Source of the DNA: Paenibacillus sp. FSL M7-0420 | GTDB taxonomy: Bacteria > Bacillota > Bacilli > Paenibacillales > Paenibacillaceae | NCBI RefSeq assembly: GCF_038002345.1 | Contig: NZ_JBBOCJ010000001.1 | Coordinates: forward strand, 6,200,001-6,264,000 | Direction: 5' to 3' | Length of the DNA: 64,000 nucleotides | Shown here: positions 19,108-57,125 of the stretch, piece by piece | How the letters are laid out: each line of letters starts with the position of its first letter | How positions within the stretch are numbered: the stretch's first letter is position 1 | The notes under the pieces: model-generated | Told to the model about the DNA's origin: nothing | Seen by the model: the letters and a program-made list of their open reading frames with translations, nothing else | Databases searched by the model: none | Position numbers and translations under genes: made by a program

Positions 19108-19893
19108 TTACTTCTTCACAGGCGAATATACGAAATCCTTAATAATCTTCGCCAGCTGCTCCGGTGCTTCGAACATGCCCATGTGGCCTACACCCGGCAG
19201 CGTCACCTTGGTGATGTTCCGGTTATCTGAGGTGAAGGTACGCTCCGGTGTCACCTTAGAATCCTCTGCTCCCGCAACCAGCAGCACCGGCAGCGCCGTT
19301 GCCGAGATCACATCGCGGCGGTCCGGGCGCTCCCGCATAGCCAAGGATGCGCCAACCGCGCCTTGCGGCGGAGTCTTATAGCCAATCTCCTTGGCACGTT
19401 CCAGCAGCCGGGGGTCCGCTCCAGGGGCAAAGAGTCCAGGCACCAGCTGATCCACAAAAGCAAAGATGCCTTCGCTCTGGATCATGGTGACGCTCTTCAG
19501 CCGGTTCTCCTTGGCTTCTTCACTATCCGGATAACCGGAGGAATGAATCAGCCCGAAGCCCTTCAACCGGGAGGCATGGCGCTGGGCAAACGACAGGGTA
19601 ATATAGCCTCCGAGCGAATGTCCCAGCAGATAACATTCCGGAATCTCCAAGGCATTCAGCAGCGACAGCACATCATCAGCCATCTGCTCGATGGTATAGG
19701 CTCCAAGCGGAGCATCCGAAGCCCCGTGCCCGCGCAGATCCGGGGCAATGACCCGGTAATGGGCAGCCAGGCTTGGGATCACCTTTTCCCAGTACTCGGC
19801 ACTCCCGCAGAATCCATGCAACAGTACGATTACATCCCCTTTGCCTTGATCACTGTAGCAGATGTTGCTTCCCTCGCATCGAACATTTTCCAT
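19108..19893 (-). CDS. Alpha/beta hydrolase
   Basis: Soluble hydrolase of 261 residues with all catalytic parts: oxyanion region LLHGFCGSAEYW, nucleophile elbow GHSLGG (Ser near residue 91), acid in VAGAEDSKVTPE and His in LPGVGHMGMFE. It is closest in style to small esterases and haloperoxidase-like enzymes. The cap region is short. The substrate cannot be deduced. It is monocistronic and ends at the hairpin shared with the MFS gene. Confidence 0.82.
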   Translation of the reverse strand: MENVRCEGSNICYSDQGKGDVIVLLHGFCGSAEYWEKVIPSLAAHYRVIAPDLRGHGASDAPLGAYTIEQMADDVLSLLNALEIPECYLLGHSLGGYITLSFAQRHASRLKGFGLIHSSGYPDSEEAKENRLKSVTMIQSEGIFAFVDQLVPGLFAPGADPRLLERAKEIGYKTPPQGAVGASLAMRERPDRRDVISATALPVLLVAGAEDSKVTPERTFTSDNRNITKVTLPGVGHMGMFEAPEQLAKIIKDFVYSPVKK

Positions 19894-20991: not shown

Positions 20992-21711
20992 CTACGGGAG
21001 ATCAATCAGAATGAATTCTGCATCTCCTGAGCTGCTTATGCCTTTGAGCGTAAGCTCACAGCTCTTGCGGATGCGCGCCGCATCCCCCTGCTGGAGCTGG
21101 AATACACCGTCCGCGCATGAGATCTCCAGATTCCCGGAAATGACATACAGATGGGTTCGCCGCTCCTCCTGCTGGGGATAGCGCAGCTCCCGGTTCGTCT
21201 GCAGAACGGACAAGTAGATGTTAACATCATTGTCCAGCTGCAGCGAGCCCTGGGTCCCTTCTCCTGAAGCAACAGGCAGCAGGTGGTTGAGCTTAAGCTC
21301 AGCCGGAAAGAACCGGGCATCCCATTTCGGGGTCTTACCGGGCCGGTCGGGCAAAAGCCAGATCTGCAGGAACCGGACATCCACATGATCTGACGGGTTC
21401 GTCTCCGAATGGTTAATGCCTGTTCCTGCGCTCATCAGCTGCACACTGCCTGCCTGCAGATCTGCATGATTCCCCAGATCATCCTGATGCTTCAGCACAC
21501 CGGATACCACATAAGTGATAATCTCCAGATCATGATGCGGGTGCTCATGCATGCCTTGCTCAGGCTTCAATTCATTGTCGTTATGCGCCAGCAGTGCGCC
21601 GAAATGGGCATTGCTGGGATCATCGTAATCGGCAAACGAGAAGCTGAATTCACTGTGTATCCATTCTCTATTCGAAGTATGACGCTCGGCTGCTGTGACT
21701 ACTTTTATCAT
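20992..21711 (-). CDS. Pirin family protein
   Basis: Two-domain cupin protein of 239 residues. The N-terminal metal site is complete: HEHPHHDLEIITYVVSG and SAGTGINHSETNP. Bacterial pirins are usually iron-containing and some act as quercetinases or redox sensors. I start it at ATG 21711 (GGAGGT at eight bases); twelve extra codons upstream have no site. The C-terminal cupin is less conserved, as is normal. No regulator is adjacent. Confidence 0.85.
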   Translation of the reverse strand: MIKVVTAAERHTSNREWIHSEFSFSFADYDDPSNAHFGALLAHNDNELKPEQGMHEHPHHDLEIITYVVSGVLKHQDDLGNHADLQAGSVQLMSAGTGINHSETNPSDHVDVRFLQIWLLPDRPGKTPKWDARFFPAELKLNHLLPVASGEGTQGSLQLDNDVNIYLSVLQTNRELRYPQQEERRTHLYVISGNLEISCADGVFQLQQGDAARIRKSCELTLKGISSSGDAEFILIDLP

Positions 21712-21942
21712 AATATTGCACCTCCATAGATGTTGGAATCTTATCAATATCCTAAACAGGGGAATGAATGCTCTTCAATATGGGATGTATAGATGCGCTA
21801 TGATTAACTATTTCTTACCCCCTTCCCTTCGAGATCAATCAAACTTGTAAAGCCGCATATTCACCGAATTAGGTATGAAAAAACACGTTTTCGGCTGGGA
21901 TGCTCCCTTATGCTCCGGCAATCTTTGCCAAGCTATTCCGCT

Positions 21943-21968
21943 GTTTCAGCACATAGCCCAAAGTGTAT
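21943..21968 (+). promoter_or_regulatory. Candidate sigma-B promoter of the YtxH-like gene
   Basis: GTTTCA (21943-21948), 14-base spacer, GTGTAT (21963-21968), one base from the classical GGGTAT. The -35 is identical to that of the rsbV promoter. The rest of 21712-22034 is featureless. Confidence 0.5.
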
Positions 21969-22034
21969 ATACGAAGTAAGAACATTCAGGCTCACCTGAA
22001 TTTGAATGACAATTCTGATAAGGAGTGATTGATA

Positions 22035-22559
22035 ATGAATAAAGCAGAGAAGGAATTTCCGGTAGAAAGCGGCAGCACATTCTTTAAAGGGATCTTCATC
22101 GGCGGTCTGCTCGGAGCAGCAGCGGCACTGTTATTCGCACCGAAGCCGGGCCGTGAAATGCGCAGTGACCTGTCCGATAAGTTCACAGTAGCTACAGATA
22201 AGACAAAAGAGGTTGCAGGAGCCGTAACTGACAAGACCAAGACGATTGCTACGACCGTAGGTGAAAAAGCTACAGACCTGGCAGGCACCGTATCGGCCAA
22301 AGCCTCCGATATCTTCACCACAGTCAGTGACAGCAAGCAACAAATTGCAGCTACTCTGGCGGAAACCGGCAAAAAGATTGGCGAAACGGTAAGCGATGCC
22401 TCCCAGGACATTACAGGCAGCGTTAAGGATGCCTCCCAGGACATAGCGGTTGAAGCCAAGGATACCTCCAAAGAGGTTGCCGACAAGGCGAAGGACGCTT
22501 CCAAGGAAATCGCAGGCGCAGCGAAAGATGCCAAGGACGAAGTTAAATCCTCTTATTAA
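22035..22559 (+). CDS. YtxH-domain general stress protein with LEA-like repeats
   Basis: A 174-residue protein with one membrane helix near residues 17-36 (FFKGIFIGGLLGAAAALLFAPKPGREMR, the YtxH signature). A long hydrophilic tail follows, rich in Lys, Asp, Ala and Thr, with imperfect 11-residue repeats (DASQDI, KDTSKEVADKAKDASKEIAG) like LEA desiccation proteins. ATG 22035 lies nine bases after AAGGAG. B. subtilis ytxH belongs to the sigma-B regulon, and a sigma-B-like promoter is seen here. It probably protects the envelope under stress. Confidence 0.82.
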   Translation: MNKAEKEFPVESGSTFFKGIFIGGLLGAAAALLFAPKPGREMRSDLSDKFTVATDKTKEVAGAVTDKTKTIATTVGEKATDLAGTVSAKASDIFTTVSDSKQQIAATLAETGKKIGETVSDASQDITGSVKDASQDIAVEAKDTSKEVADKAKDASKEIAGAAKDAKDEVKSSY

Positions 22560-22590
22560 TCCCGGATGTTCAGGCTGATTATACATTGAA

Positions 22591-22630
22591 GGGAGCGGCC
22601 AGATCTTCCGTAGCTGGCCGCTCCCTATTT
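22591..22630 (+). terminator. Hairpin after the YtxH-like gene
   Basis: Perfect 11-bp stem GGGAGCGGCCA / TGGCCGCTCCC followed by TATTTAT. Confidence 0.7.
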
Positions 22631-22688
22631 ATGCATGTCTTATATTTCAATAAAGCCTGATTCAGGCTACAGAAAGCAGGTACGCCTT

Positions 22689-23018
22689 ATGGGAGAAGCG
22701 GACAACAGAACCAAAGCTTATGACGTAGATGAGCATCCCTTCGAGCTGCGGCATGAGGTCAAACGCTTGAATGCGAGGCTCGACAAGATCGCCGACTCAC
22801 TGGAAAAATCGGAGTTCAAGGATATCCTGGAGAACTATACAGACCCCAAGAAGCGGATTATCACCAATCTGATGGCCGGGATCTCCAGAGGCCTGGGCCT
22901 CTCACTCGGTACCTTTGTCATTCTTGGTATCCTCGGCTATATCCTCAGTTTGTTTCTCAATGTACCGGTTATCGGGGAATATCTTGGAGAAATCAAAAAG
23001 TATATAGATGCTAACTAA
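22689..23018 (+). CDS. DUF5665-like small membrane protein
   Basis: A 109-residue protein with a charged N-terminal half (EVKRLNARLDKIADSLEKSEF) and a long hydrophobic segment (GLGLSLGTFVILGILGYILSLFL), matching DUF5665. I use ATG 22689; ATG 22635 in the same frame would add 18 residues but lies against the preceding hairpin and has no ribosome site. The gene sits between stress genes and the sigma-B operon. Function unknown. Confidence 0.68.
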   Translation: MGEADNRTKAYDVDEHPFELRHEVKRLNARLDKIADSLEKSEFKDILENYTDPKKRIITNLMAGISRGLGLSLGTFVILGILGYILSLFLNVPVIGEYLGEIKKYIDAN

Positions 23019-23184: not shown

Positions 23185-23955
23185 TTAATAGGATGAATTA
23201 GCCATGATCTGCTTCAGCTTCTCGGTGGCCCGCTTCTGGATACGGGAGACACTCATCTGCGAGACACCCAGCTTCTGGGCAATAGCCCGCTGGGATTGGC
23301 CATCCTGGAAGGCCAGCAGCAGCACCTGCTGCTCCTGCTCCTTCAGCTGTCCGAGCGCCTGCTGGAGATCCATACGCTTCTCCACCGTCTCGTAGTCATT
23401 CGCATCGGAGCTGATCAATTCACCGAGTGTGGCCCCGCTCTCTTCCTGGGAGAGCGGGGAATCCAGGGAGACATAATGATAACATTCTCTGCCGGCCAGT
23501 ACTTCCACAGTTTCCTCTACGGTGAGATCCAGATAGTGGGCAATCTCTTCAACCGCCGGAGAACGTTCGAGCCGAATGGTCAACTCATCAATGGCCTGCT
23601 GAACAAGCGCGCCTTTTTCCTTAATCCGCCGTGGAACCTGTATGTACCAGGATTTATCACGCAGGTAGTTTTTCATATGTCCAATCATGCTCTTCATCGC
23701 ATACGGCTCGAAGGGAATCCCCAAGCTGATGTCGTATTGCGCCAGTAGCCGGATCAGCGCCATTTGCCCTACCTGATACAGATCCTCATAGAGATCCGGA
23801 CGGTTACGGGCAATTTTGCCGGCTGCCATCTTCACCATAGGTTCATATTTGCGGATGAGCACTGTTGCGATTTCATTGTCTTTCGTCTGCTGGTATTCCC
23901 AGATCAGGCTTACTGCTTCATTCATGGACTCTGGGGGAGTCACTTTGTCATTCAT
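23185..23955 (-). CDS. sigB: General stress sigma factor SigB
   Basis: Sigma-70 family factor of 256 residues with regions 2, 3 and 4: YEDLYQVGQMALIRLLAQYD, FEPYAMKSMIGHMKNYLRDK and SQRAIAQKLGVSQMSVSRIQKRA. It belongs to the SigB/F/G branch; the two genes before it are rsbV and rsbW rather than spoIIAA and spoIIAB with spore context, and the adjoining phosphatase and stress genes favour SigB. Its ATG overlaps the rsbW stop (ATGA). A sigma-B-like promoter in front of rsbV gives positive feedback. Confidence 0.88.
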   Translation of the reverse strand: MNDKVTPPESMNEAVSLIWEYQQTKDNEIATVLIRKYEPMVKMAAGKIARNRPDLYEDLYQVGQMALIRLLAQYDISLGIPFEPYAMKSMIGHMKNYLRDKSWYIQVPRRIKEKGALVQQAIDELTIRLERSPAVEEIAHYLDLTVEETVEVLAGRECYHYVSLDSPLSQEESGATLGELISSDANDYETVEKRMDLQQALGQLKEQEQQVLLLAFQDGQSQRAIAQKLGVSQMSVSRIQKRATEKLKQIMANSSY

Positions 23956-24404
23956 ACTTTCTCCTCGCTGAAATTGAGCCGTTTAGTCAGGGTAACGACT
24001 GTCCCTTTCCCTGATTCGCTAACAACGCTAACGTCATCCATCAGCGCCTGCATTAGATAGAAGCCCAGTCCGCCCACTTGAACATCATTCAGCTCCTTGT
24101 CATGAAGCGTCAGACGTTCCCCGGACGCATCCAAACCGTCAAAGCTCTCCCCCTCATCTTTGACAGTAATGGATAAGACACTTGATCCTACCTCAAAGAT
24201 TACATCAACCATACCGTCCGCTTGCCCATAGGCATAGAGCACGGAGTTATTACATGCTTCCGAGACGGCTACCTTCATATCTTCAATGTCTTCATAAGTA
24301 AAACCCATTTTGGAGGCAATGCCGTATAAATTAAGTCTGACAATATCGACATATTCTGCACTGGCGGGTAACTGAAGAACTACTCTTTGTATGTCATCAC
24401 TCAT
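23952..24404 (-). CDS. rsbW: Anti-sigma-B factor and RsbV kinase RsbW
   Basis: GHKL-fold serine kinase of 150 residues that binds sigma-B and, alternatively, phosphorylates RsbV. The ATP lid and N-box are visible: MKVAVSEACNNSVLYAYG, ITVKDEGESFDG and QVGGLGFYLMQALMDDV. It starts 18 bases after rsbV and overlaps sigB, which keeps the three products in step. Confidence 0.9.
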   Translation of the reverse strand: MSDDIQRVVLQLPASAEYVDIVRLNLYGIASKMGFTYEDIEDMKVAVSEACNNSVLYAYGQADGMVDVIFEVGSSVLSITVKDEGESFDGLDASGERLTLHDKELNDVQVGGLGFYLMQALMDDVSVVSESGKGTVVTLTKRLNFSEEKV

Positions 24405-24422
24405 TCTTAGTTCGATCCTTTC

Positions 24423-24761
24423 CTAGTGGGTATTCTCTTGGGAGGCAAAAAACTTGGAAATGCCGGTCATGTCAAAAAGCTTCTGTATTTGCGGGGGAAC
24501 TTCAGCAACGGTGAACTTGACGTCCATTCCATGTCTTGCTTTGAGGATCGACAACAGAATTCCGATACCTGTGCTGTCAATATACTTCAGATCCTTCAGA
24601 TTAATCACGAGATCAAGCCCCGTGTCTCCCACTAGCGGTTCCATCACCAGACGAAAGTCAGGCGCCACAGACAGATCGAGTTCACCTACCAGATAAACAG
24701 TGCATACCGAACCAACGGTTTCGGTCTTTGCGTGAAACTTTTCGCTTTTATGTGTATTCAT
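24423..24761 (-). CDS. rsbV: Anti-anti-sigma factor RsbV
   Basis: STAS-domain protein of 112 residues. The phosphorylation site is Ser63 in YIDSTGIGILL. Unphosphorylated RsbV binds RsbW and frees sigma-B. ATG 24761 lies eight bases after AGGAG; an in-frame TTG two codons upstream is too close. A sigma-B-like promoter precedes it. Confidence 0.9.
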   Translation of the reverse strand: MNTHKSEKFHAKTETVGSVCTVYLVGELDLSVAPDFRLVMEPLVGDTGLDLVINLKDLKYIDSTGIGILLSILKARHGMDVKFTVAEVPPQIQKLFDMTGISKFFASQENTH

Positions 24762-24796
24762 AGACAACTCTCCTGGTTAAATGTTTTCTTTACCAA

Positions 24797-24822
24797 TAAC
24801 CCTAATAGCACAGGGTTGAAAC
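24797..24822 (-). promoter_or_regulatory. Sigma-B-type promoter of rsbV-rsbW-sigB
   Basis: GTTTCA (24822-24817), 14-base spacer, GGGTTA (24802-24797). The same two hexamers, 13 bases apart, precede the YflT-like gene at 32895. The known sigma-B form is GTTTAA then GGGTAT. Confidence 0.65.
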
Positions 24823-24857
24823 AACAAAGAGACAATACGGCACTGGTAATTCATGGG

Positions 24858-26528
24858 TCATGCGTTGAAAAGCGAAGTGTTCCGTGCGGTTGCGGGGTTA
24901 TCTCTGCCTGAATATCTGGAGATCATTTGTTTGATGCTGCTTAGCTTGAGCGGCTTGCTGATGTAGCCGTCCATTCCGGCAGCGGTGCAGCGGTCCTGAA
25001 TCCCCTCCATCACATTCGCAGTCATCGCAATGATCACCGTCTTGTCAGGCGAACCGCTGCTCTCCTCACGAATCAGGGAAGTGGCTTCAAGACCATCCAT
25101 CACCGGCATCTGCAGGTCCATGAAGATAAAATCGTACTCGGATTGCCGGGCCAGTTCTACAGCCTGGTTCCCGTCCTCAGCAACATCGGCACGATATCCG
25201 AGCTTATCCAGCATGCTAACCATAAGGCGCTGATTAATCGGATGGTCATCCACAATCAGCACTTTGCTCCGGCTTGCTTCATCTACCTCGTCCGCTGTAC
25301 CTTCCTCTTCCGGGCAGCCGCCTTCCAGCTCTTCCTCCGGCACGGCAACCTGGATAGTGAATACAAAGGTAGCCCCCTTCTCTTCCATCGACTCTACACG
25401 GATATCTCCGCCCATCATGCCCACGAGGGACTTGCAGATGGCGAGGCCGAGACCTGTGCCTCCGTATTTACGCGTCATGGAGGAATCAAGCTGGGAGAAG
25501 GGCTGGAACAGCCGGTCACATTTCTCCGGTGAAATTCCAATACCTGTATCCTTAACGGTAAATTCTATTACCAGCTTATTATCCACTGCAGGCAGAATGG
25601 AAGCAACTAAATAAACGCCGCCCTGGTTGGTAAATTTCACCGCATTGGATACGAGGTTGATCAACACCTGGCGCAGCCGGGCCATATCTCCATAAATCAG
25701 CCGCGGCAGCTTCTGGTCGATGAAATAGGCCAGCTCCAGATTTTTTTTGCCGGCTTCCGCCGAGAACAGACTAAATACCTCCTGAATGGTGGTATGCAGC
25801 TCGAATAATTGCTCTTCCATTTCCATTTTACCCGATTCCATCTTGGTGAAATCAAGGATATCGTTAATCACGGTTATTAGTGTGTCCGCACTTTTACGGA
25901 TAATCTCGGTATATTCCTTCTGCTCAGGAGCAAGCTGGGTCTCCATCAAAAGATCAATCATGCCCACTACGCCATTCATCGGCGTGCGGATCTCATGACT
26001 CATCATTGCCAGAAATTCGGTCTTGGCCTTAGCCGCGATCTCCGCCTCTTCCTTGGCTTTGATCAGTTCACCGTTCATGCGCTCAAGCTCCAGCGTCTTT
26101 TGCTGCAGCTGCATCGCCTGAATCTGCTGCTTCTTGCTGGTCAGATGCATATTCACAAAGCCTTCAATCTTCGACTTCAGAATCTGCGGGATAAACGGTT
26201 TGACCATATAATCAATAGCGCCGGCAGAGTACCCTGCGAAGAGATGCTCCGACTCCCTGCTGTTGGCAGAGATGAAGATGATCGGAATATCCTTGGTTTT
26301 CTCCCTGGCCTTGATTAGCTTGGCGGTTTCGATCCCGTCCATACCCGGCATCTGAACGTCCAGAACAATCACGGCGAATTCATATTTCAACAAGCACCGA
26401 AGTGCTTCTTCTCCAGAATTGGCTTTGACAAGCTTGTAATGCTGACTCTCAAGGACGGCTTCGAGTGCCAGCAAATTCTCGGGACGGTCATCAACCAGCA
26501 GTATATGAATCGGTTCCTGAACCCCCAT
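24858..26528 (-). CDS. Hybrid histidine kinase, REC-HisKA-HATPase-REC
   Basis: Soluble 556-residue signalling protein: an N-terminal receiver (phospho-Asp in [13 protein letters not shown]), a coiled coil, HisKA with [16 protein letters not shown] (His near residue 183), HATPase with [18 protein letters not shown] and a C-terminal receiver ([16 protein letters not shown]). It lacks a sensor domain, so its input is probably phosphotransfer or protein contact. It lies between the CheR gene (17 bases upstream) and rsbV (96 bases downstream), on the same strand. This extra kinase is not part of the three-gene Rsb input known from the Bacillus cereus group. Confidence 0.87.
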
Positions 26529-26545
26529 AGGTCCCTCCTTACCCG

Positions 26546-27421
26546 CTATTTATTTTTGCGGTATATTTTCTCTACCCGGTCCAGAGGCTCATAGCTGTCA
26601 CTGTAGCGTGTGAAATGAATAGATTCCTTGGAACCGAGGACCAGCACTCCGAACCGGCTGAGGCTCTCATGGAACAAGCCATGCACATGATCGCGGAGCT
26701 CGTCGTTGAAGTAGATCATTACGTTCCGGCACAGGATCACATTGAATTCGTTGAAGGAAGTGTCCGTTGCCAGATTATGCTCTGCAAAAATGATGTTCTT
26801 GCGTAAATACGGCTGCAGGATCACTGAGTTATATTTCGCTGTATAGTATTCCGAGAAGACACCCGTGCCTCCGGCCTCAAGGTAGTTCTTGGTGTATTGC
26901 TTCATCTTCCCGATCTCGTACACGCCTTCTTTGGCCTGCTGCAAGGAACGGGCGTTCATGTCCGTGGCATAAATTCTCGCCTTGTCATATAATCCTTCCT
27001 CATGCAGCATAATTGCCATCGAGTAGACCTCTTCGCCTGTCGAGCAGCCGGCATGCCAGATCCGGATATAAGGATAGGTCCGCAGGAGCGGAATGACCTT
27101 CTGGCGGAAGGTCAGGAAGAGTCCGGGATCACGGAACATCTCTGTCACAGGGATCGAGAGGCTATACACGAACCGCTCGAAGCATGCACGGTCATGCAGC
27201 ACCTTTTCCTGCAGGGCAGAAATAGTGGGTAAGCTCTCCGCATGGACATGATGCCAGATGCGCCGCTTCAAGGAAGGCAGGGCATAATTCCTGAAATCAT
27301 ATCCATACAAACGGTGTACTCCGTTCAGAAGCAGCTCAATCTCAATCTGTTCAAGCTCCTGCTTGCTCTCCGGCGGATTCCCCTGACCCTCATATCCGTG
27401 CTCCATCGCTGCCATTGTCAT
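26546..27421 (-). CDS. CheR-type methyltransferase, RsbM-like
   Basis: SAM-dependent protein-glutamate methyltransferase of 291 residues. Marks: [25 protein letters not shown] (SAM site), [15 protein letters not shown] and [10 protein letters not shown]. No chemotaxis genes are near. It follows a large hybrid kinase gene, as rsbM follows rsbK in the Bacillus cereus group, where RsbM methylates RsbK and lowers its output. The start is ATG 27421, five bases after GGGAG. The match to RsbM is by family and gene order; methylation of the neighbour is inferred. Confidence 0.82.
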
Positions 27422-27496
27422 CAATACTCCCTTGCCTGCGCCTTATTTCCGTACTTGGTTTGAACCTGCTGTATAGCTATTACCCCGAAATCACCC

Positions 27497-30400
27497 TTAC
27501 GAATACAACCAGACGCGCATTAACGAAAGAAGCTGATCCGTGCTGATCGGTTTCTTCATATAATCGGAGGCTCCGGCTTCAATACACTTGGCCCGGTCCT
27601 CCTTCATAGCCTTGGCTGTGAGGGCGATAATCGGCAATTTCTGGTACTGCGGCATCTGCCGGATGCGGCGCATAGCTTCATATCCGTCCATCTCCGGCAT
27701 CATCATATCCATCAGCACCAGATCATAATCACTCTGTTCGACAAGCATGTCGATGGCCTCGCGGCCGTTCTCGGCAAATTTCACTTCCATATGATAGCCT
27801 TCGAGCACGCTGGAGAGGGCAAAGACGTTGCGGATGTCGTCATCGACGAGCAGAATTTTTTTGCCTTCAAACAGTTCCTCTTTATTGTGCAGCTTTTGCA
27901 GGATTTTACGCTTATCTTCCGGCAGATTTGCTTCTACCCGGTGCATGAACAGCGTTGTCTCATCCAAAAGCCGTTCCGGCGAGCGGACATCCTTGATGAT
28001 AATGGATTCCGCATATTTGCGCAGCTTGGTCTCTTCCTTGCTGTCCAGATCTTTGCCGGTATAAATAATAATCGGCAGATCGTTCAGCTCCTCATCGTCG
28101 CGGATCTGATCCAGCAGCTCGAAGCCGGTCATATCATCCAGCATCAGATCAAGCACCATACAGTCATATCTCTGCTTGTGCAGCTCATTCAGCGCCTCTT
28201 GGCCTGAAGACACCGCCGTAATCACTACATCGTCATGTCCGATAAGCTCCTCGATGGAACGGCGCTGGATATCGTCATCCTCGACAATCAAGAGATGCTT
28301 CATCGTACTCGCGGTGTAATTCTCAATCTGCGAGAAGGCCCGGTCCAGCGCTTCACGGGAGGACGGCTTTCTGAGGTAGGCCATCGCTCCCATCATGAGC
28401 CCCTGCTTCATCTCATCATTCACAGAGATCACGTGCACCGGAATATGGCGCGTCTGGGAGTCGCTCTTAAGCTCCCTCAGGATCGACCAGCCGTCCATAA
28501 CCGGCAGCTGGATGTCGAGGATGATCGCGTCCGGCAGCAGGGTCTTGGCCATCTGCAGGCCGATATCGCCCTGCAGGGCTACCAGTCCCTTGAAGCCGCG
28601 TCCGCGGGCCATGCCCAGCAATATCTTGGCAAAGCTCTCATCATCCTCAATAATCAGCAGCACCTTGTCGCCGCTGGCAAGGGATCCCCGGTCATCTTCC
28701 ACAACTACAGGCTTAGCAGGTGTAGGCGTGATATCCCCTGCCTGATCCCATGAAAGTTCCTCCCGGAACTCCTCAAGCTGCAAGGGCTCCCCGGCAGGAG
28801 CGGCTTCAACCGCTCCCGGCAGCAGGCTAAAGTTCCCCTGAACCGGCAAATACAGTGTAAATATGCTGCCTTGTCCTTCACGGGACTCCAGTCCGATGGC
28901 CCCGCCCATCAGGCGGGCTAATTCGCGGCTGATCGACAGGCCAAGCCCCGTGCCGCCATATTTGCGGCTCGTCGTACCGTCAACCTGCTGGAACGCCTCG
29001 AAGACGATATCCATCTTATCTGAAGGGATACCGATCCCGCTGTCCTTGACGGATATGGCAATATAATCATAATCATGCGGCAGATAGGCAGGCAGCCGCT
29101 TGACGTCCGCTCGGCTGACAGAGAACTCAACATACCCTTCGCTCGTGAATTTGAAGGCATTGGACAGCAGGTTACGCAGGATCTGCTTCAGTCTGTGACT
29201 GTCGCTATATACGCTGTCCGGAAGCGGCTCGTCAAAGGACAGGCGCAGCGACAGCCCCTTCTGGGAAGCCAGCGGAGCAAAGTTCTGCTTCACGAAGGTC
29301 TTCAGCTCGACGAGCGGAATTTCTTCATGATTCAGCTCCATTTTGCCGGCATCGACCTTGGACAGATCGAGAATCTCATCAATCATCTTAAGCAAATCCG
29401 CACCTGACATATAGATGGTATGGGCGAATTCTACCTGCTTCTCGCTCAGATTGCCTTCCTTATTCTCCGTAAGGAGCTGGGAGAGGATCAGCAGGCTGTT
29501 CAGCGGAGTGCGCAGCTCATGGGACATATTGGCGAGAAACTCGGATTTGTATTTACTGGTTACTGCAAGCTGCATAGCCTGCTTCTCCAGCTGCATACGG
29601 GCATGTTCAATTTCATCCTTCTTCTCTTCAACCTCTTGCACCTGATCCTGCAGGGCACGTGTCTTGGAGACCAGCTCTGTATTGTAATGCTCCAGCTCCT
29701 CCTGCTGGCGCTGCAGCAGCTCCTCTGAACGCTTCAGGGCATCCGTCTGCTCCTCCAGATTCTCGTTGGAACGGCGCAGCTCCTCCTGCTGGGTCTGCAG
29801 CTCCTCCGACTGGCATTGCAGCTCTTCCGTGAGCGCCTGCGATTCGCGCAGCAATTCCTCAACCACAAGCCTGCGGCTGATGTTGTTCAGAATAATCCCC
29901 AGATTATTGGAGAGCTGATGCAGCAGTTCATTCTGCAGCACCGAGAATGGTGTGAAGGAAGCGAATTCCACAACACCCAGAATCTCATCCTCGAATAAAA
30001 GCGGGTGGATCGATATATAGCTTGGATGCGACTCCCCGAATCCCGAAGACACCGAGATATAGTTGTCAGGCGCCTCCGTCAGCTTGATCGGCAGCTTATC
30101 CAACGCGCTCTGTCCGACCAGTCCCTGACCGATCTCGAAGCTCTCCTTGGGCGTAACCCCCTCCTCACCGGCATAAAAAGCGCTGCTGACCAGCAGGTTC
30201 GGATTATCCTGGCTCTTCAGATAGACGGCACCATACTGCGCTCCAAGCACAGGCGTGAACTCACTGATGAAGGTCTGGGCTACCTGATCCAGCGAGCTGA
30301 CACCGCGCAGCAGCTCCGTAATCCGGGCAATATTGGCATTCAGCCAGGCCTGATCGCTCTGTGCCTGGGCATAGGATCTCTCGAGCTGCTGCTTCTGCTC

Positions 30401-31165
30401 AATATCCTCGGCCATCCGCTGGAATACCCGGGCCACATCGCCGATCTCATCCTTCGACTTCACCTTGATCCGGCGGATCGCCCGCATTTTACCGTTGCCG
30501 AAGCTCGTAATCATCATGGAGACGACACTTAGGCCGCGCGTGATGCTCGGTATCACCCACAGAATGACACCCAGCCCGAGCAGCAGCCCCAAGACCATGA
30601 TCAGGGTGACCATCTGAATCGATCGGCTCGAAGCCTCCTGGGCGTTAGCAGTCTCCTCCGTCATCCGGAAGGCATTGTAATCAGACAACGCATTCAGGCT
30701 GTTCAGCACCTCGTTCTGAATATCCTGTCCTTCTGCATTGCGGTACGTATTGGCATTCTGAAAGTATCCGGCACTCAGCATCTCCAGGACCTTGTCCTGA
30801 TACTTCAGATAGCCGGAATAGGCATTCTCAATCCGGGATAACATCTGCAATTCCTCTGCCGTCTTCAGCGAGGCCTTAATATTCTCCAGATGTTCCGCAG
30901 ACTTCAGCACCTTGCTGTCAATTTCCGCCTTCTGCGCTTCCAGGGTTACAGTATCGGCATTAAGCATGGAAGTGGTCAGTATCCGTGCCATGTCGTTCAC
31001 TTCCCCGCGAAGTCCCGAAGAAGCACGGCCTTTGCTATATCTCTCCTGGTAGCTATCCAGCTGATTGCTCATATAATGGAGCCTGTCATACCCGATCAGG
31101 GTAAGCGCCAGCATAATCGCCAGCATGGCACTGAATCCGATCAGCAGCTTAGCCTTAATCTTCAT
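27497..31165 (-). CDS. Large membrane hybrid histidine kinase, RsbK-like, with three C-terminal receivers
   Basis: A 1222-residue sensor kinase. In order: membrane helix 1 (residues 7-25), an extracytoplasmic helical sensor of about 160 residues of the CHASE3 / four-helix type, helix 2 (about 185-207), HAMP, GAF (about 290-440), a long Gln/Glu-rich coiled coil, HisKA with ANMSHELRTPLNS (His near 550), HATPase (GTGLGLSISRELARLMGG), and receivers starting near 835, 958 and 1103 (DAIILDIQLPVMDG; CMVLDLMLDDMTG; LVLMDMMMPEMDG). Its ATG overlaps the stop of the phosphatase gene (ATGA). The pairing suggests it phosphorylates the receiver of that phosphatase. Confidence 0.88.
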   Translation of the reverse strand: MKIKAKLLIGFSAMLAIMLALTLIGYDRLHYMSNQLDSYQERYSKGRASSGLRGEVNDMARILTTSMLNADTVTLEAQKAEIDSKVLKSAEHLENIKASLKTAEELQMLSRIENAYSGYLKYQDKVLEMLSAGYFQNANTYRNAEGQDIQNEVLNSLNALSDYNAFRMTEETANAQEASSRSIQMVTLIMVLGLLLGLGVILWVIPSITRGLSVVSMMITSFGNGKMRAIRRIKVKSKDEIGDVARVFQRMAEDIEQKQQLERSYAQAQSDQAWLNANIARITELLRGVSSLDQVAQTFISEFTPVLGAQYGAVYLKSQDNPNLLVSSAFYAGEEGVTPKESFEIGQGLVGQSALDKLPIKLTEAPDNYISVSSGFGESHPSYISIHPLLFEDEILGVVEFASFTPFSVLQNELLHQLSNNLGIILNNISRRLVVEELLRESQALTEELQCQSEELQTQQEELRRSNENLEEQTDALKRSEELLQRQQEELEHYNTELVSKTRALQDQVQEVEEKKDEIEHARMQLEKQAMQLAVTSKYKSEFLANMSHELRTPLNSLLILSQLLTENKEGNLSEKQVEFAHTIYMSGADLLKMIDEILDLSKVDAGKMELNHEEIPLVELKTFVKQNFAPLASQKGLSLRLSFDEPLPDSVYSDSHRLKQILRNLLSNAFKFTSEGYVEFSVSRADVKRLPAYLPHDYDYIAISVKDSGIGIPSDKMDIVFEAFQQVDGTTSRKYGGTGLGLSISRELARLMGGAIGLESREGQGSIFTLYLPVQGNFSLLPGAVEAAPAGEPLQLEEFREELSWDQAGDITPTPAKPVVVEDDRGSLASGDKVLLIIEDDESFAKILLGMARGRGFKGLVALQGDIGLQMAKTLLPDAIILDIQLPVMDGWSILRELKSDSQTRHIPVHVISVNDEMKQGLMMGAMAYLRKPSSREALDRAFSQIENYTASTMKHLLIVEDDDIQRRSIEELIGHDDVVITAVSSGQEALNELHKQRYDCMVLDLMLDDMTGFELLDQIRDDEELNDLPIIIYTGKDLDSKEETKLRKYAESIIIKDVRSPERLLDETTLFMHRVEANLPEDKRKILQKLHNKEELFEGKKILLVDDDIRNVFALSSVLEGYHMEVKFAENGREAIDMLVEQSDYDLVLMDMMMPEMDGYEAMRRIRQMPQYQKLPIIALTAKAMKEDRAKCIEAGASDYMKKPISTDQLLSLMRVWLYS

Positions 31166-32334
31166 TCCTTATCGGTTCCTTTCTTCAGCGAGATCCACAC
31201 CAGGCATTTATCGTCATCACGTTCCGAATTGACCGGCTCGCTCAGGAAGGCAGCGCGCACCAGGTCTTCCTGCCAGTCATGAGTGGCATTCAAATGCCCG
31301 ACCATGAATTTCAGCTGCTCCTCCTGCTCGCCCTCCACCATCTCCATGAGGCCGTCCGTGAACAGCACCAGATGACCCTCGTCTTCGTAGCTGAGGCTCT
31401 GCTGCTGGATATCGATCCGGTCAAACAGCCCGACAGGGTGGCCGTTGCTCTCAAGCAGGACAGGCGTCTTGGCCTCCCCTTCAAAAAACAGCGCCGGCGG
31501 ATGCCCGGCATTCACATAATTAATCCGCTTCATGCGGGTATCAATGACAAGATAGATCGCCGTGAAATAATACTGGACCAGCTGCTTCTCAATGTGTAGC
31601 TGGTTAAAACGCCTGTTAAGCTCCTGAATGACCTTCTCCGGCTCCACATAGGTGGTTACGGTATCCTTCAGGACCGAGGCCAGGAACATGGTAAACAAGG
31701 AGGACGAGATACCGTGGCCCATCATATCCAGCAGGATGACCGCATAGCGCCCGTCTCCCAGCGGATACCAGGCATACAGATCCCCGGCCAGCTCGAAGGA
31801 AGGCTGGTAAATCGCATGTACCTCCAGGGTCTCCTCGGCAAGCGGCAGACTGAGTACCGCATTCTGCACCAGCGCAGCCAGCTTCAATTCATCCTGTATC
31901 CGCTGGTCCCGCTCCTTATGCCAGTCCTTCTCGCGCTTCAGCCGCAGCGCGAGGCGGATACGGGCCATCAGCTCCACCTTGTTAATCGGCTTCGTAACAT
32001 AATCCACCGCTCCGGCATCCAGCGCCTCCGCAAGCTTCTTCGAGTCACCTACAGCCGTAACCATAATAATAGGAATATCCTTCAGATGCTCATATTGCTG
32101 GACCACACGGCAGGCTTCAATCCCGTCCATTTCCGGCATCATCATATCCAGCAGAATGAGATCCACATCGGACGGCCGGGGCTGCCCGCTCTCTTCCCCT
32201 GCACCGACGCCCAGCAGCTTCAGCATATCTTTGGCGGACGAAGCCGTTATAAAATTCCGGTAATCTTCCTTCTTGAGGATCTCACGGATAATAATTACAT
32301 TAGTAGGATTGTCATCTACGATTAATATTCTCAA
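31162..32334 (-). CDS. Response regulator PP2C phosphatase, RsbY-like
   Basis: A 390-residue protein with a receiver domain (phospho-Asp near residue 63 in LILLDMMMPEMDG, Lys in VTKPINK), a coiled linker and a SpoIIE-type PP2C domain (SFELAGDLYAWYPLG, LLDMMGHGISSSLFTMFL, NAGHPPALFF, LVLFTDGLMEMVEG). This is the RsbY type of RsbV phosphatase. It starts at TTG 32334, seven bases after GAGGTG, and overlaps the large kinase gene. It should act on phosphorylated RsbV when its receiver is charged. Confidence 0.86.
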   Translation of the reverse strand: MRILIVDDNPTNVIIIREILKKEDYRNFITASSAKDMLKLLGVGAGEESGQPRPSDVDLILLDMMMPEMDGIEACRVVQQYEHLKDIPIIMVTAVGDSKKLAEALDAGAVDYVTKPINKVELMARIRLALRLKREKDWHKERDQRIQDELKLAALVQNAVLSLPLAEETLEVHAIYQPSFELAGDLYAWYPLGDGRYAVILLDMMGHGISSSLFTMFLASVLKDTVTTYVEPEKVIQELNRRFNQLHIEKQLVQYYFTAIYLVIDTRMKRINYVNAGHPPALFFEGEAKTPVLLESNGHPVGLFDRIDIQQQSLSYEDEGHLVLFTDGLMEMVEGEQEEQLKFMVGHLNATHDWQEDLVRAAFLSEPVNSERDDDKCLVWISLKKGTDKE

Positions 32335-32547: not shown

Positions 32548-32895
32548 TTATTGTGGGTTTCTTTTGGCAATGACCAGAACCTTGCCTGTATCAAGCTCTT
32601 TCTCGTAAAATGCCGCCTCCGCTGCGCTGAAGCCCAGTGAAGTAATCTTGAAGCGTAAAGCGTCGCCGCGCGAACGGAAAAGGTTGGCAATGGCACCGAA
32701 CAGCCCTTCTTCACTCAGCCCCACTTCATTAGTATCTGCGGCGTCCACGATACGCCCTTCGCGGTCTTCATCGTGACTGATCACATAAAGATCCTCTCTG
32801 GTGTAGCCGCTGCTACGGAGCCGATTCACTTCTTCGATCGCCTGAACGCCGTTCTCCAGCAGCTTGGCATAAGCCTGTGTACCTGTTGAATCCAT
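32548..32895 (-). CDS. General stress protein, YflT/GSP17M-like
   Basis: Small soluble protein of 115 residues. It has the GSP17M-type pattern: a Gly-Val-rich N-terminal strand-helix (NGVQAIEEVNRLRSSGYTREDLYVISHD) and a C-terminal GFSAAEAAFYEKELDTGKVLVIAK. ATG 32895 lies nine bases after AAGGAG; the frame upstream overlaps the previous gene and is not part of it. B. subtilis yflT is controlled by sigma-B, and a strong sigma-B-like promoter is present here. Confidence 0.82.
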   Translation of the reverse strand: MDSTGTQAYAKLLENGVQAIEEVNRLRSSGYTREDLYVISHDEDREGRIVDAADTNEVGLSEEGLFGAIANLFRSRGDALRFKITSLGFSAAEAAFYEKELDTGKVLVIAKRNPQ

Positions 32896-32957: not shown

Positions 32958-32982
32958 TAACCCAAATCGCCGCGCTTGAAAC
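32958..32982 (-). promoter_or_regulatory. Sigma-B-type promoter of the YflT-like gene
   Basis: GTTTCA (32982-32977), 13-base spacer, GGGTTA (32963-32958), the same two hexamers as before rsbV. It begins just after the stop of the preceding gene. Confidence 0.7.
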
Positions 32983-32986
32983 AGCT

Positions 32987-33523
32987 TCAGAAGGAATAAG
33001 CGTCGAATAAATCCAGCCCGGCCCATTCGCCGCTCTCCGTATTGCGGTAGATCTTGAGCGCAGCCTCTCCTCTAATATAAACATCCCCATCCTCAGCTTC
33101 AAAATCAGGCGCTCCCAGCATATCCTGCACGTTCATGGCCTGCGGATCAAGCACCCGTCCATTGAGGCTCAGACCGTATTGTCCGGCCTGGGAAGGCGAA
33201 GCATGAACATACAGGACAACACCGCCGCATACCCCCGCCGAGCTATCGGCATACTGATATTCCAGGCAGCCCGCCCAAGGATCTTCAGTAATCTGCTGAG
33301 GAGTTCCCTTAGCCTGCCGCAGCTCCTCTTCCGTCATATATAAGCTAATACCGGACAAGGAGTCGAAGCTGCTTATGTAGAGATCGGCAACTGCGCTATG
33401 CTCGAAGGCGAATATTACCGGCAGCTGTGCAGCGGTACTAGGAGCGGGAGAAACAGTCTCATCCTGCGGCGGTGCAGAGATGAAGGGAGCAAGCAGACTA
33501 AGCAAGAGAATAACCATTTTCAT
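32987..33523 (-). CDS. Hypothetical secreted protein
   Basis: A 178-residue protein with a signal peptide (MKMVILLLSLLAPFISAPP) followed by a Pro/Ser/Thr-rich stretch and a globular part with two Cys (WAGCLEYQ, AGVCGGVVLYVHAS) that could form a disulfide. ATG 33523 follows GGCGGG. I do not recognise the family. It ends just before the sigma-B promoter of the next gene. Confidence 0.7.
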   Translation of the reverse strand: MKMVILLLSLLAPFISAPPQDETVSPAPSTAAQLPVIFAFEHSAVADLYISSFDSLSGISLYMTEEELRQAKGTPQQITEDPWAGCLEYQYADSSAGVCGGVVLYVHASPSQAGQYGLSLNGRVLDPQAMNVQDMLGAPDFEAEDGDVYIRGEAALKIYRNTESGEWAGLDLFDAYSF

Positions 33524-33590
33524 AGGGTTCCCGCCTTTCATGAGCTGGTATTGCCCCGTCCTGAGCCCCGCCGTATTTCATTCCATTGTA

Positions 33591-34097
33591 TTAATGGCGG
33601 AATTTCTGCCAGATTGCAGCGGCTGCATCCACGCCTTTGAGGGCTGAGGCTATCTTGCCCTTGGATTTGCTTGAACTCACTGCCTCATAGGATTGCACGG
33701 TTCTCTCCTCGGCCGGTGTTAACGGGGATTCTGCGATGGATACCGATTTTGCCTTATCCTTCAGTTCACGTGATTTACGGAATTTCTCAATTACTGTTAC
33801 AGATACCTGCTTCACGGTCAATGTCAGCTCGTTCATGACATCGCCCAGATTCTTCACGGAATCCACGATCGGGTCAATCTTCTGAATTTTACCCTGCACA
33901 TCCGCTGTGATGTCATTGGCATGCCGGACGGTTGTTTTGACTTCATAGGTAAGCTCATCAATCGTCTTCTGAACCTCCTGCAGAGTCTGACTGACCTTGT
34001 CGAGCGATTCCTTCGCTGACTTCAAGGTTTTGATTAAGAAAAATACGAGTACTGCGAATGCGATAGCAGCCAGTGCTACGCTAAGTTCAATGATCAT
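33591..34097 (-). CDS. DUF948 protein, YtxG-like
   Basis: A 168-residue protein: one N-terminal membrane helix (MIIELSVALAAIAFAVLVFF), then a long coiled coil (DKVSQTLQEVQKTIDELTYEVKTTVRHANDIT) and a basic tail. This is the DUF948 layout of B. subtilis YtxG, which lies in the sigma-B-dependent ytxGHJ operon. ATG 34097 lies nine bases after AAGGGG. A sigma-B-like promoter is 60 bases upstream. The ytxH-like partner in this genome is separate, at 22035. Confidence 0.82.
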   Translation of the reverse strand: MIIELSVALAAIAFAVLVFFLIKTLKSAKESLDKVSQTLQEVQKTIDELTYEVKTTVRHANDITADVQGKIQKIDPIVDSVKNLGDVMNELTLTVKQVSVTVIEKFRKSRELKDKAKSVSIAESPLTPAEERTVQSYEAVSSSKSKGKIASALKGVDAAAAIWQKFRH

Positions 34098-34156: not shown

Positions 34157-34182
34157 TTACCCTTACAGAATTGGGCCGAAAC
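34157..34182 (-). promoter_or_regulatory. Sigma-B-type promoter of the YtxG-like gene
   Basis: GTTTCG (34182-34177), 14-base spacer, GGGTAA (34162-34157). Confidence 0.65.
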
Positions 34183-56138: not shown

Positions 56139-57125
56139 TTACATAATGCTTTCTTTGGCAAATTTCTTCATCAGACCGTTGGCGGTAAACAGCAGGATGA
56201 CACTCACTACAGAGGTAAACATGCTTATCGCCGTGCCGTAGGAGAACCGTCCAATCTGTATCCCGTATTTAAGCGCATACAAATCCAGCACTTCCGAATA
56301 ATCGGTAACCATATTGTTCTGCAGCTGGAATTGCTTCTCGAAGCCGATGCCGACCAGATGGCCGATATTCATAATCAGCAGCACCATCACCGTTGTGCGG
56401 ATACCCGGCAGCGTAATATTGAACATCTGCTTAACCCGTCCTGCACCGTCCACTTTGGCCGCTTCATACAGCTCTTTATCAATGCCTGTAATCGCTGCCA
56501 GATAGATGATCGCGTTCCAGCCCGTTTCCTTCCAGATGTCAGCAGCCGTTAAGACTCCCCAGAAGTATTTCCCTTTGGCCATGAACTGAATCGGCTCATC
56601 AATCACATTCATCCAGAGCAGCAGATCATTCACGATCCCCCCGTCAATTGCAAGCGTCTTGTAGACAATCCCGCCTACAACGACCCAGGATACAAAGTGG
56701 GGCAGGTAAGATATCGTCTGGACCGATCTCTTGAAGACGTTGCCGCGCAGCTCATTGAGCATCACGGCGAACAGGATAGGAACCACGAAGCCGAAGATCA
56801 GTCCCAGCATGCTCATCGCCAGTGTATTTCTTAATACGAGGTAGAAGCGTTCATCCTGGAACAGCTCCCTGAAGTTGTCCAGTCCGACCCATTTCTGCTC
56901 GCTGAACGACCTGACTGGCTTATAATTCTGGAAGGCCATTAGCCATCCCCATATGGGCACATAGCTGAATATAAATACCCAGATTACGAATGGAAGGGAC
57001 ATCAGGTATAAGTACTTTTGCTGGAGTACGCTTTTCCAAAATCCACTATTCCGTTTCGCAGGTGGGCGGGGGGTTACGCTTTCATTTGCTGTAACACCGC
57101 TTTCAGTGAGCGCTTTCACGATCAT
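56139..57125 (-). CDS. Carbohydrate ABC transporter permease, LplB-like
   Basis: Integral membrane permease of 328 residues with six helices. The EAA loop is EAAKVDGAGRVKQMFNITLPGIR. It is the first gene of the transporter operon and follows the sensor kinase gene at 57240 by about 115 bases. A near-consensus cre sequence covers its first codons. Confidence 0.9.
   Translation of the reverse strand: MIVKALTESGVTANESVTPRPPAKRNSGFWKSVLQQKYLYLMSLPFVIWVFIFSYVPIWGWLMAFQNYKPVRSFSEQKWVGLDNFRELFQDERFYLVLRNTLAMSMLGLIFGFVVPILFAVMLNELRGNVFKRSVQTISYLPHFVSWVVVGGIVYKTLAIDGGIVNDLLLWMNVIDEPIQFMAKGKYFWGVLTAADIWKETGWNAIIYLAAITGIDKELYEAAKVDGAGRVKQMFNITLPGIRTTVMVLLIMNIGHLVGIGFEKQFQLQNNMVTDYSEVLDLYALKYGIQIGRFSYGTAISMFTSVVSVILLFTANGLMKKFAKESIM
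57105..57118. promoter_or_regulatory. Candidate cre site at the start of the LplB-like gene
   Basis: On the minus strand TGAAAGCGCTCACT differs from the cre consensus only at the last base. It covers codons 3-7 of the permease, as the perfect cre at 1441 covers the start of its kinase gene. Confidence 0.45.

Follow-up and report, generated by a model that had tools for sequence, protein, structure and literature searches.

A sigma-B locus was located in a 64,000-nucleotide stretch (the window) of the 7.67 Mb genome of Paenibacillus sp. FSL M7-0420, and the named relatives closest to its sigB were Paenibacillus. Seven genes followed one another on the minus strand in the order rsbY, rsbK, rsbM (cheR), HK2, rsbV, rsbW and sigB. 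With a probability only slightly above one half (about 0.55), they form a partner-switching unit for sigma-B that is fed by a three-tier histidine-kinase input, in which RsbK would phosphorylate HK2 and HK2 would phosphorylate RsbY. This reading draws on the anatomy of the proteins, conserved active sites, co-occurrence, reductions and a fusion of HK2, and a promoter motif, all taken from sequence. Only the partner-switching part rests on well-known families, and we infer the transfers from RsbK to HK2 and from HK2 to RsbY. An initial annotation had read the seven genes as one circuit; its RsbY-RsbK-RsbM input joined to rsbV-rsbW-sigB was retained, while the role of HK2 and a promoter between HK2 and rsbV had been overlooked.

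HK2, a putative receiver-controlled kinase

The fourth gene encoded HK2, a putative Rec-controlled histidine kinase which would phosphorylate RsbY. It had the layout of LvrB-type proteins, namely an N-terminal receiver (with Asp, Ser/Thr and Lys), a linker, DHp and CA. The protein did not end after the CA domain: a second receiver was present in the window HK2, and many order-level relatives were without it. No sensor domain of its own was seen by Pfam in the window HK2 besides its receivers. Among 43 HK2-type rows, the distance from the receiver Lys to the His was 68 (18 rows) or 61 (13 rows), which is one heptad apart; linker lengths that change in heptads are a hallmark of Rec-controlled kinases. 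Seven HK2-type proteins (L130, L131, L132 and other order-level loci) carried an insertion of about 130-140 residues separating the receiver from the kinase, and the insert of L130 was a PAS domain, therefore some HK2-type kinases may have a sensor domain of their own. A PDB sequence search with HK2 gave 29 entries at E <= 1e-20, none of which was named LvrB and many of which were labelled only 'histidine kinase'.

HK2 was kept in several reduced forms. Without RsbK it persisted as a REC-kinase in L153, L027 and L049, the last two having lost the last receiver, and it was gone in L039. In L119-L121 it was a bare kinase core of 255-287 amino acids, whose frame started before the end of rsbY and whose histidine and ATP-binding motifs looked intact by eye. 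No large RsbK-type match was found in these three genomes at E <= 1e-60, and their best CheR match was only chemotaxis-like (about 31% identity). Relocation was also observed, since HK2 stayed with rsbY in G070 while rsbK-rsbM lay on another contig, and rsbK-rsbM-HK2 were located together elsewhere in the genome in G127 and G137.

A fusion of the two kinases was identified directly behind rsbY in G043 and G088 (L143/L192 and L159/L193), where an RsbK-type sensor was joined to an HK2-clade kinase. The fused protein contained 4HB_MCP, HAMP, GAF, HisKA and HATPase domains and no receiver. Its first half was 41-44% identical to residues 1-489 of RsbK, and its kinase half was 51-53% identical to HK2. 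In a 97-row kinase tree the kinase domains of the fusions fell inside the HK2 clade (split 100/100), and the bare cores also belonged to it, on a long branch.

Two more RsbK-like kinases with three receivers were observed in the same genome, one of 1187 amino acids (L109:7809-12556) and one of 1902 amino acids (L110:6940-14016), the latter with nine or more HAMP matches. Each of them adjoined an HK2-related REC-kinase, and no rsbY or cheR was seen in the stretches fetched.

Conservation in Paenibacillus and Saccharibacillus

The cluster was compared among 80 named Paenibacillus and Saccharibacillus sigB loci, which may share species with the order-wide sample described below. All seven genes were present in the same order in 75 of the 80, a few of these with split frames (L016, L042, L051, L053), so the comparison across Paenibacillus proposed in the initial annotation showed that the arrangement is not chance. 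The same number, 75 of 80, had both rsbK and HK2. Among the remaining five, L025 and L060 were cut by contig ends, and L027, L039 and L049 had no rsbK at the locus and retained rsbY and cheR.

The residues needed for phosphotransfer were compared in 74-80 orthologues per gene, gaps aside. Asp63 of RsbY was invariant in 78/78 and its PP2C aspartates were conserved. For RsbK, whose phospho-acceptor residues are His549, Asp884, Asp1006 and Asp1153, the histidine and all three receiver aspartates were invariant in 74/74. Asp57, Ser87, Lys110 and His178 of HK2 were invariant in 79/79, and Asp471 of its second receiver was found in 73/79, the other six being gaps. The candidate phospho-serine of RsbV was invariant in 80/80.

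RsbK receivers and HK2 across the order

For the whole order, 139 genomes were searched; sigB was found in 112 (E <= 1e-50), RsbY in 108 (E <= 1e-40) and RsbM-type CheR in 111 (E <= 1e-60). From the 108 rsbY loci 58 were read (L119-L136, L139-L178), two of which were cut by contig ends (L160, L171), leaving 56 uncut loci. Architectures were taken from stop-to-stop frames, since longer antisense frames can hide genes.

A three-receiver RsbK was present in 28 of the 56 loci and an HK2-type kinase accompanied it in 28/28, including L133, in which rsbK was split in two frames and cheR was not local. One-receiver RsbK occurred in 18 loci, with an HK2-type kinase in 3/18; in the other 15 (14 in genus g28, one in g33) RsbK and RsbM lay behind sigB and HK2 was absent. 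No match at E <= 1e-90 covered the N-terminal receiver of HK2 in any of the five g28 genomes examined (5/5), the matches starting at residue 154. Nine loci had no local RsbK, and six of these nine kept an HK2-type kinase. Two sigB loci without RsbY were read too; L137 had an HK2-type kinase and L138 had neither. A second, three-receiver RsbK with RsbM was found in G082, with only a distant REC-kinase nearby.

In G049 the RsbY match was limited to residues 1-250, RsbK was receiver-less, and RsbM and HK2 were not found, which suggests that the pathway is decaying in this genome. In family f6, many loci (L131, L134, L141 and others) contained a second rsbV-rsbW-like pair before rsbVW-sigB.

Distribution of RsbM

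The RsbM-type CheR of the window was the single match in its own genome at E <= 1e-60. At this threshold it was missing from five of the 108 rsbY genomes (G077, G038, G119, G091 and G049). The first four had no large RsbK-type match at E <= 1e-60, just one kinase of 484-492 amino acids, and the sole RsbK of G049 is the receiver-less one. In G031 and G039 rsbK stood without a local cheR, which was found elsewhere in the genome. The genomes of L027, L039 and L049 kept cheR, and their best RsbK match was a kinase of 898-934 amino acids with a single receiver (L113-L115). Eight genomes had an RsbM-type CheR and no RsbY match at E <= 1e-40. CheR presence thus tends to follow RsbK-type kinases, a correlation consistent with a general action of CheR on kinases of the RsbK type.

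Two orphan proteins of CHASE3-HAMP-GAF-kinase-REC layout, the order described for B. cereus RsbK, were also observed in the genome of the window (L111:5495-8194, minus strand; L112:6252-8996, plus strand). They could feed RsbY as additional inputs and serve as RsbM substrates.

Proposed signal flow and alternatives

In the proposed pathway, stress would be sensed by the four-helix-bundle, HAMP and GAF domains of membrane-anchored RsbK, and methylation of the RsbK signalling helix by RsbM would set the threshold, as RsbM does for RsbK in B. cereus. RsbK would then phosphorylate the N-terminal receiver of HK2, which could bring the linker helices together as a coiled coil and thereby free the HK2 kinase, as in Leptospira LvrB. 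The receiver of RsbY would be phosphorylated by HK2. As expected from the known families, the PP2C domain of RsbY would dephosphorylate RsbV-P, RsbV would take RsbW and sigma-B would be free. Finally, sigma-B would transcribe rsbV-rsbW-sigB from the predicted promoter ahead of rsbV (Table 1), and probably the flanking yflT and DUF948 genes as well. The receivers of RsbK and the second receiver of HK2 are most likely phosphate sinks or inhibitory domains, not obligate relay stations.

The full phosphorelay claimed in the initial annotation was left unproven, as no Hpt domain was found among the ten window proteins scanned with Pfam (the rest of the genome was not searched for Hpt) and the authors of the B. 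cereus work favour a direct RsbK-RsbY transfer (PMC4574943). HK2 was kept with RsbY in several loci from which RsbK was gone, so a relay could still be real, by another route than the annotated one.

Several observations weigh against transfer through HK2. One-receiver RsbK stood together with HK2 in three loci (L131, L136, L155), so the number of receivers does not strictly predict HK2, and the receiver-less RsbK of one locus in 56 (L146/L194, from G049) had no HK2. When three-receiver RsbK lay away from rsbY (four loci read), HK2 was beside it in L188 and L189 and not in L187, and L190 had only a distant REC-kinase (32%) which was not classed as HK2. No local kinase accompanied rsbY in three uncut order-level loci (L122, L127, L128) and the named locus L039. 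Tree-aware tests of independent pairs on the RsbY tree, for three-receiver RsbK against HK2, went in the expected direction with a median p of 0.5, the pairs being far too few for significance. The fusion was seen in one genus only, and seven of the 43 HK2-type rows, those with an inserted domain, gave Lys-His distances of 198-204, off the heptad step, five rows being unmeasured. Docking residues of RsbY, tried as a marker of its partner kinase, varied by lineage and failed to separate RsbK-type from HK2-type partners.

The B. cereus data also favour a pathway without HK2. There a direct transfer from H505 to D59 of RsbY is argued for and no Hpt is found (PMC4574943), therefore RsbK and HK2 could be two parallel kinases of RsbY. 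RsbK would then phosphorylate RsbY itself, and HK2 would be an independent RsbY kinase, with other kinases or acetyl phosphate as the input to its receiver. This main alternative is plausible in the light of the B. cereus data but is considered rather less likely. In its favour, HK2 was missing beside one-receiver RsbK in 15 of the 58 order-level loci read, and HK2 kept in several loci without RsbK implies some RsbK-independent function. However, every one of the 28 uncut rsbY loci with three-receiver RsbK also had HK2, the fusion of RsbK sensor and HK2 kinase puts the two in series, and the window HK2 has no sensor beyond its receivers.

Histidine kinases are often bifunctional, and both receivers of HK2 could drain phosphate. 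HK2 might then be a phosphate sink or a phosphatase turning RsbK and RsbY off, with its core acting mainly in reverse on RsbY-P. This is improbable, since no kinase other than the bare core was found beside RsbY in L119-L121, where a pure sink would provide no local activator of RsbY, and histidine and ATP-binding motifs looked intact in the bare cores by eye and in the named orthologues. It is still harder to believe that the locus is a plain B. cereus-type RsbY-RsbK-RsbM module with HK2 as a bystander kept by operon linkage. Family resemblance speaks for it, and the available passages of Yeak et al. 2023 give the Paenibacillus module with no second kinase named (PMC9847131), but His178 and Asp57 of HK2 were conserved in 79/79, HK2 was retained across reductions, relocation and fusion, and the same genome holds two more pairs of RsbK-like kinase and Rec-kinase.

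Signal flow from RsbK through HK2 to RsbY is thus preferred. A broader proposal is held more tentatively, at somewhat less than even odds. Paenibacillaceae and their relatives would use an Hpt-free series relay in which a methylatable RsbK feeds HK2 and HK2 alone talks to RsbY. The relay would have been cut repeatedly to a REC-kinase, a bare kinase or a fusion, and would represent the Gram-positive equivalent of LvrA-LvrB-LvrC. The same RsbY and RsbM would be fed as well by the two further RsbK/Rec-kinase pairs of this genome and by its two RsbK-type kinases with one receiver.

Comparison with known systems

An RsbK-RsbM-RsbY input to sigma-B of B. cereus was reportedly described by de Been et al. 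in 2010 and 2011, the 2011 work reportedly covering RsbK-type kinases. The locus here resembles that system in its REC-PP2C phosphatase, its RsbK of sensor, HAMP, GAF, signalling helix and kinase, the rsbM adjoining rsbK and the rsbV-rsbW-sigB in the cluster. It differs in RsbK, which is described for B. cereus with CHASE3 and one receiver and has a 4HB_MCP_1 sensor and three receivers here, a distinction drawn from published descriptions. It differs also in that RsbK is not the only kinase, HK2 being present. Genus g28 of the same order, with one-receiver RsbK and RsbM behind sigB, is likewise without HK2.

The initial annotation had taken the placement beside sigB as a distinction from B. 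cereus, which was not upheld, as B. cereus rsbK-rsbM sit in the sigB cluster too (PMC4574943). In Paenibacillus, rsbKY and rsbM were reported in strains JDR-2 and Y412MC10 (Yeak et al. 2023, PMC9847131); this is the same module in the same genus, and HK2 is unmentioned in the main text passages of that paper. So RsbK-RsbY-RsbM in Paenibacillus is already known, and adjacency to sigB is likewise not new. The literature searched contained no mention of a conserved HK2 as fourth component, of its repeated reductions or of the sensor-kinase fusion; de Been et al. 2011, outside that search, may show HK2 in a figure of genome context.

In Leptospira, LvrA phosphorylates LvrB (PMC5863495), the phosphorylated LvrB receiver drives formation of a coiled coil which releases the kinase, and the substrate of LvrB is a putative anti-sigma protein (PMC13269768). 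In both LvrA-LvrB-LvrC and the present locus a hybrid kinase is followed by a Rec-kinase (REC-alphaS-DHp-CA) and a receiver protein, lvrA and lvrB being adjacent; the likeness described here is one of layout. The output of the Lvr system is a putative Rec-anti-sigma factor, in contrast to the REC-PP2C phosphatase here. Unlike LvrB, HK2 also has a C-terminal receiver, and no CheR is mentioned for the Lvr system in the passages available. KipF-PakF of Sphingomonas melonis is an alphaproteobacterial pathway whose output differs from that of the locus here. In its stress response a Rec-kinase is likewise phosphorylated by another kinase (PMC5863495).

If the proposed signal flow is true, Rec-controlled kinases, which were described in Leptospira and alphaproteobacteria, would also have a place in the general stress response of Gram-positive bacteria. 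Transfer from RsbK to RsbY may be direct or relayed, and Paenibacillus loci supply natural variants which separate these two routes, the bare-kinase form and the sensor-kinase fusion among them.

Sigma-B-type promoters

Four matches to the motif GTTT-N2-N12..15-GGGTWA were counted in the window, where 0.30 would be expected. Three of them lay ahead of rsbV, yflT and DUF948, and the fourth at 57053. Counts in the 80 named loci used a slightly wider last hexamer. The strict motif stood ahead of rsbV in 52/80 (0.75 expected from shuffles, none on the opposite strand). A separate sigma-B promoter for rsbVW-sigB is therefore very probable. Among the 28 rsbV loci lacking the strict motif, 17 had a looser variant such as GATTCA-N-GGGTT (no shuffle control) and 11 had none. 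Ahead of yflT the motif occurred in 18/73 (1.6 expected), ahead of DUF948 in five of the six loci that reach far enough, ahead of rsbY in 2/80 (0.8 expected), and ahead of HK2, cheR and rsbW in 0/80 each. No conserved sigma-B promoter was seen ahead of rsbY, cheR or HK2, and read-through from the yflT promoter is possible. A whole-genome scan gave 8 matches against 5 in a backward-read control, so no sigma-B regulon could be predicted from the motif.

Gene assignments and neighbouring genes

Domains were assigned by the Pfam scan of ten window proteins. All seven open reading frames were on the minus strand as the initial annotation had placed them, and Pfam agreed with its domains, including the three receivers (REC-REC-REC) on the 1222-residue kinase. 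The HAMP match of RsbK was under its curated Pfam cut-off (21.6 vs 25 bits), and the signalling helix was read from sequence. The best equivalog model for the sigma factor was SigB TIGR02941 (204.6 bits, below the cut-off of 315), while the sporulation SigF model gave 131. RsbW was above the NF003144 cut-off (156.9 vs 145 bits) and below that of TIGR01924 (136.4 vs 155.05).

Table 1. Features of the sigB locus (window positions)
Feature	Position	Strand	Description
rsbY	31162..32334	-	REC-SpoIIE/PP2C, 390 amino acids, TTG start; receiver Asp63 and four PP2C aspartates
rsbK	27497..31165	-	4HB_MCP-HAMP-GAF-signalling helix-HisKA-HATPase-REC-REC-REC, 1222 amino acids
rsbM (cheR)	26546..27424	-	CheR_N-CheR, CheR-type methyltransferase, 292 amino acids, TTG start
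HK2	24858..26528	-	REC-HisKA-HATPase-REC, 556 amino acids; Asp57, His178, Asp471
rsbV	24423..24761	-	STAS anti-anti-sigma factor, ATG start
rsbW	23952..24404	-	HATPase_c_2, anti-sigma kinase
sigB	23185..23955	-	sigma-70 r2-r3-r4; SigB/F/G-family sigma factor, 256 amino acids
Sigma-B-type promoter (predicted)	24797..24822	-	GTTTCA-N14-GGGTTA, 35 bases before rsbV ATG
yflT-like gene	32548..32895	-	general stress protein, upstream of rsbY; predicted sigma-B-type promoter at 32958-32982 (-)
DUF948 gene	33591..34097	-	start placed at inner ATG; predicted sigma-B-type promoter at 34157-34182 (-)

The overlap of rsbY and rsbK seen earlier was four bases by coordinates (31162-31165), and rsbW and sigB overlapped by four bases as well (23952-23955). 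From the frame ends and the rsbV ATG, the gaps were 72 bases for rsbK-rsbM, 17 for rsbM-HK2, 96 for HK2-rsbV and 18 for rsbV-rsbW.

Three PP2C (PF07228) matches were revealed in the genome, namely rsbY, a PAS-PAS-PP2C protein and a SpoIIE-like membrane frame, the last judged by eye. The PAS-PAS-PP2C protein (L116:4060-5490, minus strand, 476 amino acids) is presumably RsbP-like in layout and could be a second phosphatase for RsbV.

An alpha/beta hydrolase (19108-19893, minus strand) was encoded 3 kb from sigB in the window and near sigB in 72/80 named loci. It was rejected as RsbQ, its best solved-structure matches being esterases and no RsbQ appearing among the best 60 of 156 matches. Pirin-type, YtxH-like and DUF5665 proteins lay beside sigB (20992-23018) and were present in 55, 76 and 75 of the 80 named loci. 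Between yflT and DUF948, a small protein with no Pfam match (32987-33541, minus strand) was found, which was present in 70/80 named loci.

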